Origin: Phycisphaerales bacterium
GTDB taxonomy: Bacteria > Planctomycetota > Phycisphaerae > Phycisphaerales > UBA5793
NCBI GenBank assembly: GCA_020852515.1
Contig: JADZAS010000015.1
Span: forward strand, 248,001-312,000
Reading direction: 5' to 3'
Length of the DNA: 64,000 nt
The translations under genes and the position numbers were made by a program. Positions within the stretch are counted from its first letter, which is position 1. The number at the start of each line of letters is the position of its first letter. The notes beneath the pieces were generated by a model. The model was given only the letters and a program-made list of their open reading frames with translations. It searched no databases and had not been told where the DNA came from. Shown here one piece after another: positions 2,982 to 16,597 of this stretch.

Positions 2982-5039
2982 ATGGCATTTCCCATTCGTC
3001 ATTTCGCGCCGATCGTTGTGCTGACCCTGGCCTCGCTGTGCAGCGCGTGCGGGCGCGAGGAGCCGGCGCCGCGGCCGGACGCCCCAAGCGAGGAATCGAC
3101 TCTGGAGCAGCCCCAGCCGCCCGAGAAGCCGGTCGAAGCGGAGTCGCCGGCCGAAGCGCCGCCACCGCAGGGCGGGCAGACGCAGGAGGCCAAGCGATCG
3201 ATCGAAGACTACCCGTGGCCGGTGCGGCCGGGCTTGCGCGTCGCCATGGTGCGCTCGAAGGTGCCGACGATCGACCGCGTGGTGCTCGTACCCGATGAGG
3301 CGACCTACGTGGAAGCGATTTCGGAGTGGAGCCTGCTCGGTCGCTGGCCCGTGCTCTTTGAAGATGACCAGTACGCGCCGATGTTTATCCGACGCTTCAA
3401 GCCAGCCGAGGTGGTCCGCAAGGCGCCTACGCGTCACCCGCTGCCCCAGCCCGCAGCGCTGCAGGAGCAGATGCGCGTCATCGTCTCGCGAGCCTGGAGC
3501 ACGGGGTCGGAGGCGGATGAGCCGACGGCTGAGAACATGAAGGATCGCTTTGCGGCCGTGCAGTGGACGCCGCCGGGCGTGGTCATCACGTCCGTCAAGG
3601 ACGATGCGTGGCCGGCGGCGCTGGCGCTCGCGGCCGATCGCGGCCAGCCGATCGCATTTCTCGATGAGCGATTCGGTCGAGCCAATCAGGTGGTCTCAGC
3701 CGACGACTGGCCCCGGCTCAGCGCCGCGGTCGAGTCCTGCGTGGCTTCGGCGGGCTATCCATATGACGCCCTGGGCGATGCGATCGACACGATCACGCTG
3801 GCGCGCCAACTGGGCAATCGCTACGCCGATGCGAGCGACGCGTCGGGGCGGTCGCACATTGCAGTCACCGACGGTCTGGCTCGCACGGGTTTGAAGCGTT
3901 GGGCGGTCGCGGGCTGGATCTTCGGCCCGACGGCTCGGACCACGTACATGGCCATGTCTTCGATCTTCCTCGAGCACGACGCGGCGCTGCTCTTTGACAC
4001 GTACGGCGGAGGCTCGCCGTGGTCGCGCTACGCCATGGACCAACCCGCCGCGCGCCTGCGCGAGGCCGGACTGGACGTGCGCGAGATTTCCAGCCCGGCA
4101 AGCACCGCCGCGGCGTGGGAGCGGCTGGCGCCCAGCGGGCTCAGTGCCGATCTCATTCTTGTCAACACGAGCGGCAACCAGAACTGGTTCAACACCGCCG
4201 ACGAGACGCGCGTGTTCATGCACGACATGCCGATTCTTAACACACCTGCGGCGGTTCACTTTGTGCATTCATGGTCGGCGCTGGCGCCCGAGAACCGCAA
4301 TACGCTCGCCGGCCGCTGGCTCGAGCGCGGCGCCTACGCATACGTCGGCAGCGTGGAGGAGCCGACGCTCAGCGCCTTCGTGCCGCCTGAACTGCTCGTC
4401 GATCGGTTGCGCTCAGCAGTTCCGTTCCTCGTTGCCGCGCGGGTATGGGAGCAGGCGCCCTGGCGCGTGACGACCATCGGCGATCCGCTCATGATCCTGC
4501 TGCCCGATCTTCCCCGCCTCGCGCCCGACGCGCGGCCGATCGAAGGCGCGAATCTGCGCGACGTGCTGCGGGAAGCGACGGACGCCGCCACGGCCGGGGG
4601 CGACTGGACGCCGGTGCTGCGCACGCTCAATCTGCTCGGCCTCGACGAGGTGGCGATGAGCCTCTACGAGCAGCGCCTCAAGGACGCCGCTTCGGCCGAC
4701 ACGATCGCGCTGGCTCTGGGCGTCGTGTTCCGCAAGGGCGATGCGCCGACCCTGCTGCACGCCTTCGAGCAGATTCCCCTTTCGCAGGTCATGCCCGAAC
4801 AGCAGGACCTGCTCTGGCTCAAGTGGATTCCCTCGCTGACATCGATTGATCAAGGGGCTGACCTGATGCTGCTGCGCCGGCACATCCGCACGCCCAAGGG
4901 CTACGTCGATGCGGCGCGCCTCGCGCCGGTGATGGAAGCGCTGGGCCAGCGCGACCAGATCAACGCCATGCTCGATGAGTTCGAAGCGGAGGCGAAAGAG
5001 CCGTACGCGCGCGATCTCGTCCGCCGCGCGCGGCCGTGA
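2982..5039 (+). CDS. large putative lipoprotein with a C25/TIGR03790-like region
   Basis: 685 residues. The N-terminus has a short hydrophobic segment ending in LCSAC, an imperfect lipobox with Cys at position 23, followed by a Pro/Glu/Ala-rich linker (about residues 25-70). Such linkers often tether an outer-facing domain. The middle (about 240-500) has YPYDALGDAID, a GGGSPWSRY stretch, YAYVGSVEEPTLSAF and VTTIGDPLMILLP. This order resembles the TIGR03790/gingipain-like group, where an alanine- and glycine-rich active core ends in a 'GDPL' segment. I cannot see a confident catalytic Cys-His pair. The C-terminal ~180 residues look helical, perhaps TPR-like. A TATTAT hexamer at 2970-2975 lies 6 nt before the ATG. 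The function is unknown; the lipoprotein call is moderate and the fold assignment weak. Confidence 0.6.
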   Translation: MAFPIRHFAPIVVLTLASLCSACGREEPAPRPDAPSEESTLEQPQPPEKPVEAESPAEAPPPQGGQTQEAKRSIEDYPWPVRPGLRVAMVRSKVPTIDRVVLVPDEATYVEAISEWSLLGRWPVLFEDDQYAPMFIRRFKPAEVVRKAPTRHPLPQPAALQEQMRVIVSRAWSTGSEADEPTAENMKDRFAAVQWTPPGVVITSVKDDAWPAALALAADRGQPIAFLDERFGRANQVVSADDWPRLSAAVESCVASAGYPYDALGDAIDTITLARQLGNRYADASDASGRSHIAVTDGLARTGLKRWAVAGWIFGPTARTTYMAMSSIFLEHDAALLFDTYGGGSPWSRYAMDQPAARLREAGLDVREISSPASTAAAWERLAPSGLSADLILVNTSGNQNWFNTADETRVFMHDMPILNTPAAVHFVHSWSALAPENRNTLAGRWLERGAYAYVGSVEEPTLSAFVPPELLVDRLRSAVPFLVAARVWEQAPWRVTTIGDPLMILLPDLPRLAPDARPIEGANLRDVLREATDAATAGGDWTPVLRTLNLLGLDEVAMSLYEQRLKDAASADTIALALGVVFRKGDAPTLLHAFEQIPLSQVMPEQQDLLWLKWIPSLTSIDQGADLMLLRRHIRTPKGYVDAARLAPVMEALGQRDQINAMLDEFEAEAKEPYARDLVRRARP

Positions 5040-5886: not shown

Positions 5887-5993
5887 GGCCGGCGGCCGGG
5901 ACGCGCCGATATCATTGCTTCTCAGGGCCTGCGCGTGTGGCGCGCGCGGGCGAATTTCGACGCGCTCACTGAAAACTGCAAGAGGAGAAGCAC

Positions 5994-6218
5994 GTGAAGG
6001 TTTCCATCAAGTACTGCGGCATGTGAAACTACCGCCCGCGAGCCGCCGGTCTGGCGGACGAGATCAAAAATCGATTCGGCGCCAAGGCCGAGTTGATCGA
6101 GGGTTCAGGCGGCGTCTTTGACGTGACCGTGAACGGCAAACTCATCTACAGCAAGCACGAGACGGGCGAGTTTCCCGACCACGCGAAACTGCTCGACGCG
6201 ATGGCGAGTTACGCCTAA
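5994..6218 (+). CDS. SelW-like (SelT/SelW/SelH, Rdx family) selenoprotein with in-frame TGA read as selenocysteine
   Basis: A 74-residue thioredoxin-like protein hidden from ordinary gene calling because codon 11 is TGA (6024-6026). With TGA as Sec it begins VKVSIKYCGM-Sec-NYRPRA, giving the CxxU redox motif after the first beta strand that defines the Rdx family. The rest fits too: LADEIKNRFGAKAELIEGSG, then GVFDVTVNGKLIYSK and HETGEFPDHAKLL, and a stop TAA at 6216-6218. Start GTG at 5994 has a strong GAGGAG at 5982-5987. A hairpin 21 nt downstream of the TGA has the features of a bacterial SECIS. Family proteins are thought to act in thiol redox reactions. Decoding needs selA, selB, selC and selD elsewhere in the genome, which I cannot see. 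If there is no selenocysteine machinery this would be a nonsense pseudogene, but intact coding on both sides argues against that. Confidence 0.88.
6043..6057 (+). promoter_or_regulatory. bacterial SECIS apical hairpin (bSECIS) of the SelW-like gene
   Basis: Five GC base pairs (CCGCC 6043-6047 with GGCGG 6053-6057) close a GGTCT loop (6048-6052). The loop begins 22 nt after the last base of the TGA, inside the reading frame, which is the placement known for bacterial SECIS elements bound by SelB. The GGUCU loop is the one I recall for the E. coli fdhF SECIS, in which the loop guanines contact SelB. The sequence and pairing are seen; SelB binding is inferred. Confidence 0.8.
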
Positions 6219-6235: not shown

Positions 6236-6269
6236 AAAGCCCCCGCCGAACCGGTTCGGCGGGGGCTTT
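6236..6269. terminator. bidirectional intrinsic terminator
   Basis: A 15-bp inverted repeat (arms 6236-6250 and 6255-6269) around a CCGG loop, with TTTT after the right arm. On the other strand the hairpin is followed by TTTGTTTC. It lies between the converging SelW-like gene (+) and the subtilase gene (-) and can serve both. Confidence 0.85.
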
Positions 6270-6292
6270 TCGTTGGAGCATGAAGCGCCGGA

Positions 6293-14841: not shown

Positions 14842-15576
14842 ATGAACGACACGAGATGCAAGTTGCTCCTTGCAGGCGCCGCCGTCGTCGCCTGCAGCAT
14901 GTTCGGCGCGACTCGCGCCGACGTGATGACCAACGCCGGCTTCGAGAACATGATCTCCACCACAGGACCGCTGCCGACGGACTACGGCTATTGGCGCGGA
15001 GACATGACCAACATCCTCCATGGGGAGAACGACATCAATCCGTTCGAAGGCCTGTGCATGCTGCGCTTCGATCACACGACAGAGCACGGCTCTTCGCCGG
15101 CAACCGGCTCGGAACTCTGGCAGGTGCTCGACGTGTCGTCGTTCATCCCGCTGATCCGATCCGGCGGAGCGATCGCCGATGCAGGCGCCTGGTTCAATCG
15201 CGTGGGCCCGCCCACCGAGACGCCCGTTGACACGATGTTCGCGCTGGGCGTGTACGCATACGCCGGCGAGGTCGGCTCGTTCCCCGCGCAGTGGGGCCAT
15301 GGCGAGCTTGGCTCAGCCATGCTCACCCTTGACTCCGACAGCCACATTGAGACGTGGGAGCAGATCGCCCTGCAGTGGAACCTGCCTCAGGCAACGGACT
15401 TCATCGCGATTCGCGTCTGCGCCTCCGAGAACGTCTACAACGACGTCACGGGCAATGAATTCGCAGGCCACTATGTGGACGGCGTTGGGTTCACCATCAT
15501 TCCCACGCCGGCCTCGATCGCGTGCCTCCTGCCCGCGAGTCTCCTGCTGCTGGGTCGAAGGCGTCGCCAGCCGTAG
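14842..15576 (+). CDS. exported protein with PEP-CTERM-like tail, paralogue 1 of 3
   Basis: 244 residues: a signal peptide (MNDTRCKLLLAGAAVVACS... ending TRADV), a ~195-residue beta-rich domain, then a sorting tail. The tail reads IIPTPASIACLLP, a hydrophobic stretch and GRRRRQP, the tripartite layout of PEP-CTERM signals but with Pro-Thr-Pro instead of Pro-Glu-Pro. The domain shares with its two neighbours the motifs GFENM, YGYWRGDM, ENDINPFEG, GSELWQVLD, FAGHYVDGVGFTIIP. This could be a jelly-roll/carbohydrate-binding-like fold, but I do not recognise the family. Exosortase-type processing is inferred from the tail; no exosortase gene is in the window. Confidence 0.8.
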   Translation: MNDTRCKLLLAGAAVVACSMFGATRADVMTNAGFENMISTTGPLPTDYGYWRGDMTNILHGENDINPFEGLCMLRFDHTTEHGSSPATGSELWQVLDVSSFIPLIRSGGAIADAGAWFNRVGPPTETPVDTMFALGVYAYAGEVGSFPAQWGHGELGSAMLTLDSDSHIETWEQIALQWNLPQATDFIAIRVCASENVYNDVTGNEFAGHYVDGVGFTIIPTPASIACLLPASLLLLGRRRRQP

Positions 15577-15640: not shown

Positions 15641-15763
15641 TCTTCGGCGAGGGGGCACCTTACCGACCCAGAACATCCCACGATCAGGGTGTCCCAGGCG
15701 GCAACCCGGCGTGCCGCGGTAGGCAAAAACCTCGGCAGTTTTTGCAAATCTTCCGGCGTTCCC

Positions 15764-15792
15764 TTGCATTATCGCCGGAGTTGTGGTATTCT
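15764..15792 (+). promoter_or_regulatory. sigma70-like promoter of PEP-CTERM-like paralogue 2
   Basis: TTGCAT (15764-15769) and TATTCT (15787-15792) are separated by exactly 17 nt, in an AT-richer stretch 71 nt before the ATG. TTTTGCAA at 15740-15747 just upstream recurs at 16781-16788 before paralogue 3 and could be a shared element. Confidence 0.65.
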
Positions 15793-15862
15793 AACGGGTC
15801 CGAATAGGTTGCGCGCTTGCGCGAACCTGCTTCGGTGGGACCTGTTTTACGGGGAGAGTGAG

Positions 15863-16597
15863 ATGAAATCTGCTATTCGCAGCGTCGCGTCCTTCGGTGC
15901 AGCCGCGGCCGTCTTTGGCGCCGCTGGCGCGGTCCAGGCTGACATGATTTCCAACGCAGGCTTTGAGACGATGGTCTCGACCACCGGCACCCTGCCCAAC
16001 GGCTACGGGTACTGGCGCGGCGACATGAGCACGATCGTCGGCATCGAGAACGACATCCTGCCGTTCGAAGGTGTTTGCATGCTTCGCTTCGACAACACGA
16101 CGCGGAACGGCGCCTCGGGCTCGGTCGGCGCGGAGATCTGGCAGATCATCGACGTTTCCTCGTACGAATCGATGATCCGCTCAGGCAACGGTCAGATCGA
16201 CGCCGGCGCGTACTTCAACCGCATCAACCAGTCGCTCGGCTCAGCCGTGGACAGCATGTTCTCCATCGGCGTGTATGCCTACGCCGGTTCGGCGGACACG
16301 TTCCCGAGCCAGTGGACTCGCAACGAGCTCGGCTCGAGCCAGTCCACCTTCCTCAGCGATGGCGATCTTCAGTCCTGGCAGCAGGCGTCGCTGTCCTTCC
16401 TCCTCCCGCAGGCGACCGATTTCGTGGTCCTGCGCCTCAGCGCGACCGAAAACATCTTCAATGACATCACCGGCGCCGAGTTTGCCGGTCACTACGTGGA
16501 TGGCGTGGGCTTCACGATCATCCCGACGCCGGCTTCGCTGCTGTGCCTGGCACCCGCCGGCCTGGTCGCCCTCGGCCGCCGTCGCCGCCGCGCATGA
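15863..16597 (+). CDS. exported protein with PEP-CTERM-like tail, paralogue 2 of 3
   Basis: 244 residues, the same layout as its neighbours: signal peptide (MKSAIRSVASFGAAAAVFGA ending VQADM), beta-rich body with YGYWRGDM, ENDILPFEG, EIWQIIDVSSY and FAGHYVDGVGFTIIP, then the tail IPTPASLLCLAPAG and a final GRRRRRA. The ATG at 15863 is preceded by GGGGAGAG and agrees with the start of paralogue 1; the frame is open upstream to 15689 but that part has no signal peptide. It has its own promoter and terminator, so it is probably transcribed alone. Function unknown; likely a surface or matrix protein. Confidence 0.8.
   Translation: MKSAIRSVASFGAAAAVFGAAGAVQADMISNAGFETMVSTTGTLPNGYGYWRGDMSTIVGIENDILPFEGVCMLRFDNTTRNGASGSVGAEIWQIIDVSSYESMIRSGNGQIDAGAYFNRINQSLGSAVDSMFSIGVYAYAGSADTFPSQWTRNELGSSQSTFLSDGDLQSWQQASLSFLLPQATDFVVLRLSATENIFNDITGAEFAGHYVDGVGFTIIPTPASLLCLAPAGLVALGRRRRRA

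Follow-up and report, generated by a model that had tools for sequence, protein, structure and literature searches.

The window, by which we mean the whole 64-kb stretch of DNA that was analysed, belongs to a genome of 4.72 Mb in 39 contigs (96.7% complete) and contains, between map and a gene for a subtilisin-like protease, a short reading frame with an in-frame TGA at its eleventh codon. The features of this locus are the following:

2982-5039: gene for a 685-residue protein without a Pfam match, found near map and selW in congeners at 58-90% identity
5080-5886: map, adjoining the SelW-like gene and kept there in congeners
5982-5987, plus strand: Shine-Dalgarno sequence GAGGAG, 6 nt upstream of the GTG; most relatives likewise have an AGGAG-type motif ahead of the start
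5994-6218, plus strand: selW-like selenoprotein gene, with GTG start at 5994, TGA at 6024-6026 (codon 11) and TAA at 6216-6218
6015-6026, plus strand: CxxU redox motif Cys8-Gly9-Met10-Sec11
6024-6026, plus strand: UGA codon read as selenocysteine (Sec), with TGA at the same codon in relatives and Sec machinery in the genome
6043-6057, plus strand: bacterial SECIS stem-loop, CCGCC (6043-6047) pairing with GGCGG (6053-6057) around the loop GGUCU (6048-6052)
6236-6270, plus strand: terminator-like hairpin of 15 bp with a short T tract (-29.4 kcal/mol, z -4.28)
8128-6293: subtilisin-like protease, kept around the SelW-like gene in congeners

The conserved linkage to map, the 685-residue protein and the protease gives no clear functional hint. 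The strong Shine-Dalgarno sequence described in the original prediction is in place; the terminator that it placed after the stop is partly borne out, in that a stable hairpin lies there, but the T-run is only 4, and for this reason a consensus terminator scan passed over it.

Read with Sec at the TGA, the product has 74 residues (VKVSIKYCGMUNYRPRAAGLADEIKNRFGAKAELIEGSGGVFDVTVNGKLIYSKHETGEFPDHAKLLDAMASYA), and its proposed fit to the SelT/SelW/SelH (Rdx) family was upheld by profile comparisons. TIGR02174 gave 62.1 bits against the product and 56.5 bits against the gene in the genome profile search, with one TGA inside the match (cut-off 34.2 in both cases), while the Sec-read protein scored 76.7 bits with PF10262 (Rdx; cut-off 22.6) and 91.7 bits with NF041051, "SelT/SelW/SelH family (seleno)protein" (cut-off 88). 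All three curated family cut-offs are thus exceeded, and sequence comparison places the protein in this family from end to end. The Cys-Gly-Met-Sec motif likewise occupies the CxxU/CxxC site of the family, the columns of Cys8 and Sec/Cys11 being invariant in our 36-row alignment (A1). An AlphaFold2 model (pLDDT 91; strand at residues 3-8, helix at 14-28) has SelW-family proteins as its best PDB matches, with TM up to 0.94 and including 2fa8 and mouse SelW 2npb, and is predicted to adopt the thioredoxin-like Rdx fold. The CxxU site lies between the first strand and the first helix of the model, a location that, by analogy with the family, points to thiol-disulfide redox chemistry. Coding on both sides of the TGA, as had been claimed, is apparent from comparison with four congeners: upstream the differences are few (1-5 in 30 nt) and mainly in the third position, and downstream they fall mostly on third codon positions.

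Of 103 relatives parsed from other Planctomycetota genomes, 102 retain the TGA at this codon, and the remaining one (L057), the sole parsed homologue of the phylum without TGA, has Cys at the Sec position; counted with the gene of the window, the parsed genes of the class and phylum comprise 103 with TGA and 1 with TGC. This distribution is in line with Cys or Sec at residue 11, and no other residue was seen at this position among the parsed relatives. The gene is present with its TGA in all 6 genomes of the host's family and in 88 of 397 genomes of its class, where each of the 93 SelW matches listed contains one TGA and none is a Cys form. Hence Cys, for which close relatives were to be inspected, was found once among the parsed genes of the class and phylum and not among these 93 class matches. 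At the level of the phylum 143 of 392 genomes have a SelW match. Most of these matches contain TGA, and at least 11 of those listed lack any stop. The nearest relatives in named genomes are from Planctomycetota, including Phycisphaerales bacterium UBA5793, and more distant TGA forms occur in records titled Thermodesulfovibrionia, Gammaproteobacteria, Acidobacteriota, Chloroflexota and Actinomycetota; four cross-phylum rows with mis-parsed frames (L193, L196, L200 and L202) were left out of the counts. A further record titled Vicinamibacteraceae (Acidobacteriota; L153) is probably mislabelled, because its locus is the planctomycete one at genus level, flanking genes included.

The genome encodes a complete apparatus for Sec insertion, selD, selB, selA and tRNA-Sec forming one co-oriented cluster on another contig (C16:103305-98647):

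C16:103305-102379, minus strand: selD, with an in-frame TGA within NCAGUAGKLSAQ
C16:102239-100353, minus strand: selB, encoding winged-helix domains 2 and 3, typical of SECIS binding
C16:100199-98832, minus strand: selA
C16:98742-98647, minus strand: tRNA-Sec (selC), called by ARAGORN as SeC with anticodon TCA (UCA)

All four genes that were to be sought are therefore present, among them selA, selB and selC, whose absence was to have counted against Sec, and together with a covarying SECIS, which the original prediction had not included, they support its claim that the host decodes UGA as Sec. Its further suggestion that such decoding is documented in few planctomycetes was overstated: selA is found in 152 of 397 genomes of the class, above cut-off in 144, and Sec insertion genes in planctomycetes are also described in the passages available from PMC4807772. 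A selA match was found in 84 of the 88 genomes with SelW and in 68 of the 309 without it (Fisher p 3e-38, relatedness not corrected); Sec decoding alongside SelW is widespread in the class. The four SelW genomes in which no selA match was found comprise three incomplete drafts (83-88% complete) and one rated 98%; the latter (G242) has SelW with TGA, and its lack of a selA match would reflect either an assembly gap or a real loss.

The hairpin after the TGA was assessed by covariation, because folding of single sequences, which we rejected as evidence, fails even on the true fdhF SECIS (z merely -0.36). Numbering from the T of TGA as 1, nucleotides 20-24 pair with 30-34 and 25-29 form the loop. 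Standard pairs occupy 480 of 500 cells in 100 distinct sequences (mean 455 and maximum 462 when the 3' partners are shuffled), and 22 cells show double changes (mean 3, maximum 9 in shuffles); once sequences of other phyla are included, bringing the set to 143, 677 of 715 cells are paired. The compensatory changes seen in the stem include CG to TA, CG to AT and GC to AT. On a tree that was built without the SECIS codons and rests on a short protein, parsimony infers repeated double changes, with four separate CG to TA events at pair 21-33, for instance. TGA and hairpin together are common to Gammaproteobacteria, Acidobacteriota, Thermodesulfovibrionia and Chloroflexi, and within the window the motif is matched at 6043-6057 only. 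The hairpin also agrees with the published bSECIS model (loop of 3-9 nt, stem of 4-16 bp, G in the first two loop positions, spacing of 16-37 nt, MFE <= -7.5 kcal/mol; PMC13188914), having the 5-nt loop GGUCU, 5 bp, 21 nt from UGA to loop and -9.5 kcal/mol for the hairpin itself. It differs, however, from the MFE structure of the isolated sequence: when the 40 nt after the TGA are folded alone a competing structure is preferred and the pair probability of the stem is 0.009; the stem becomes the minimum only with the first 15-18 nt omitted, as they would be under ribosome cover.

The loop is AGUUU, GGUCU or AGUCU in 95% of the sequences. Of 42 inferred changes at positions 25 and 28, 16 are joint switches between A-U and G-C, in either direction, and G-U never occurs; AGU is mostly followed by UUG, and since both UUG and CUG encode Leu, the Leu-codon side of the switch is synonymous. 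This pattern suggests that bases 25 and 28 of the SelW SECIS may pair with each other across the loop. A wider scenario, which we regard as possible though rather doubtful, is that the SelW SECIS is nearly fixed across phyla, that the cross-loop pair exposes only GU to SelB, and that SelW and its SECIS are retained or passed on together, possibly as a main reason why the class keeps Sec decoding.

In its essentials the original prediction holds. The gene, its family membership, the Sec machinery, the SECIS covariation and the predicted fold are directly supported, and we are very nearly certain that the locus encodes a SelW-like selenoprotein with Sec inserted at UGA codon 11 via SECIS and SelB. 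That the TGA is instead a genuine stop, in a decayed pseudogene or through a sequencing error for TGC or TGT (Cys), has in its favour the interruption of the frame and nothing specific otherwise; such a locus is hard to reconcile with the TGA that congeners and all parsed relatives save L057 have at this codon, with third-position-biased differences past it, or with a conserved Shine-Dalgarno sequence and a covarying SECIS. Conservation, as judged from these comparisons, rules this explanation out, and we accord it a negligible probability. Some bacteria read through UGA without Sec, and decoding by a near-cognate or suppressor tRNA (e.g. Trp) could be considered on that ground; here the codon falls where the family has its redox Cys/Sec, L057 has Cys there, and the genome possesses a complete Sec system with a SECIS, so that this too is extremely improbable.

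Only slightly less improbable is that the hairpin is conserved through protein constraint or codon bias alone, the SECIS lying elsewhere or having another shape. Conservation of AxGLA/AxSLA in the protein and the differing lone MFE fold are compatible with that account, but protein constraint would leave unexplained the frozen synonymous positions (GCC in 91%, AGT or GGT in 95%), the compensatory stem changes and the exclusive use of CTG, never TTG, after GGT. Moreover, the loop motif is absent from the Cys homologue L057, and alternative slid pairings of the region score far lower.

For the SelW-like selenoprotein we envisage that, when the ribosome arrives at UGA codon 11, the mRNA hairpin about 20 nt downstream would bind the C-terminal winged-helix domains of a SelB that carries Sec-tRNA-Sec, which SelA makes with selenophosphate provided by SelD. 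SelB would then deliver Sec at the UGA and translation would run on to the TAA, yielding a small protein of thioredoxin-like fold in which CxxU would serve as a thiol/selenol redox site. SelB binding to the hairpin, Sec incorporation in vivo and redox function are steps that we infer from what is known of the family.

Both the family and the Sec mechanism are already known in bacteria, SelW-like proteins since 2005 and planctomycete Sec since at least 2016. SelW-like was the most abundant selenoprotein family in Sargasso Sea data (Zhang et al. 2005, PMC1088965), and in organisms that use Sec its Cys forms were noted in 2006 to be few or absent (Zhang et al. 2006, PMC1794560). The members described in the available passages of these papers share with ours the CxxU, the size, a bacterial SECIS whose small apical loop contains G and the scarcity of Cys forms in Sec-using organisms, but are from other host lineages, no planctomycete being named in those passages. 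Similarly, Planctomycetes P1 and P2 from Porphyra (PMC4807772, 2016) are of the same phylum and have complete Sec insertion genes and selenoproteins, but represent other lineages, and the passages available name FdhA and FmdB and not SelW. A literature search in an incomplete library returned no description of SelW in the host's class. The SECIS of E. coli fdhF has the same GGUC loop on a short stem near the UGA (confirmed in E. coli genomes), but belongs to an unrelated protein and has a different stem; counted from the U of UGA, its loop begins at nt 22 and ours at nt 25, and the stem here has no bulged U. Mouse SelW (2npb) and Agrobacterium Atu0228 (2fa8) share the fold with the motif position aligned, although Atu0228 has CxxC where our product has CxxU. 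NF041051 (SelTWH_Campy), whose equivalog cut-off the product passes, is named for Campylobacterota; because NCBI already curates this model, the gene would not necessarily escape automated annotation, contrary to what had been expected, though it is easily mis-annotated. It is a securely supported selenoprotein and, with Sec and SelW so widespread in the class, work on gene numbers and redox biology in this group calls for annotation that takes Sec into account. The many SECIS hairpins are a natural source of covariation data on how SelB recognises its targets; our understanding of the genetic code and of SelW is unchanged by this gene.

At least three further UGA-containing genes with similar hairpins (GGUC or AGGUU loops) are present in the host genome. 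Two encode thioredoxin/TlpA-like (AhpC-TSA) proteins (L147 and L148; C5 at ~145 kb and C13 at ~396.9 kb) with the UGA in a WUPPC or WUGPC motif, each followed 31 nt past the UGA by a near-identical GAGC-GGUC-GCUC hairpin with its loop at nt 35. The third is selD (L018), whose TGA precedes a 6-7 bp hairpin with the loop AGGUU at nt 35, and SelD itself is, by its sequence, a predicted selenoprotein. That one GGU-type loop recurs behind several UGA codons unrelated to each other is evidence that a single SelB recognises them. FdhA was rejected as a selenoprotein here, the five molybdopterin domains in the genome having no TGA inside. A scan of the window for TGA followed by a hairpin gave 7 other candidates besides the SelW-like gene, all of which look like chance. 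Elsewhere in the window, two adjacent and similar proteins (14842-15576 and 15689-16597) bear a C-terminal tail of the form IIPTPAS...LLxLGRRRR that resembles PEP-CTERM sorting signals.
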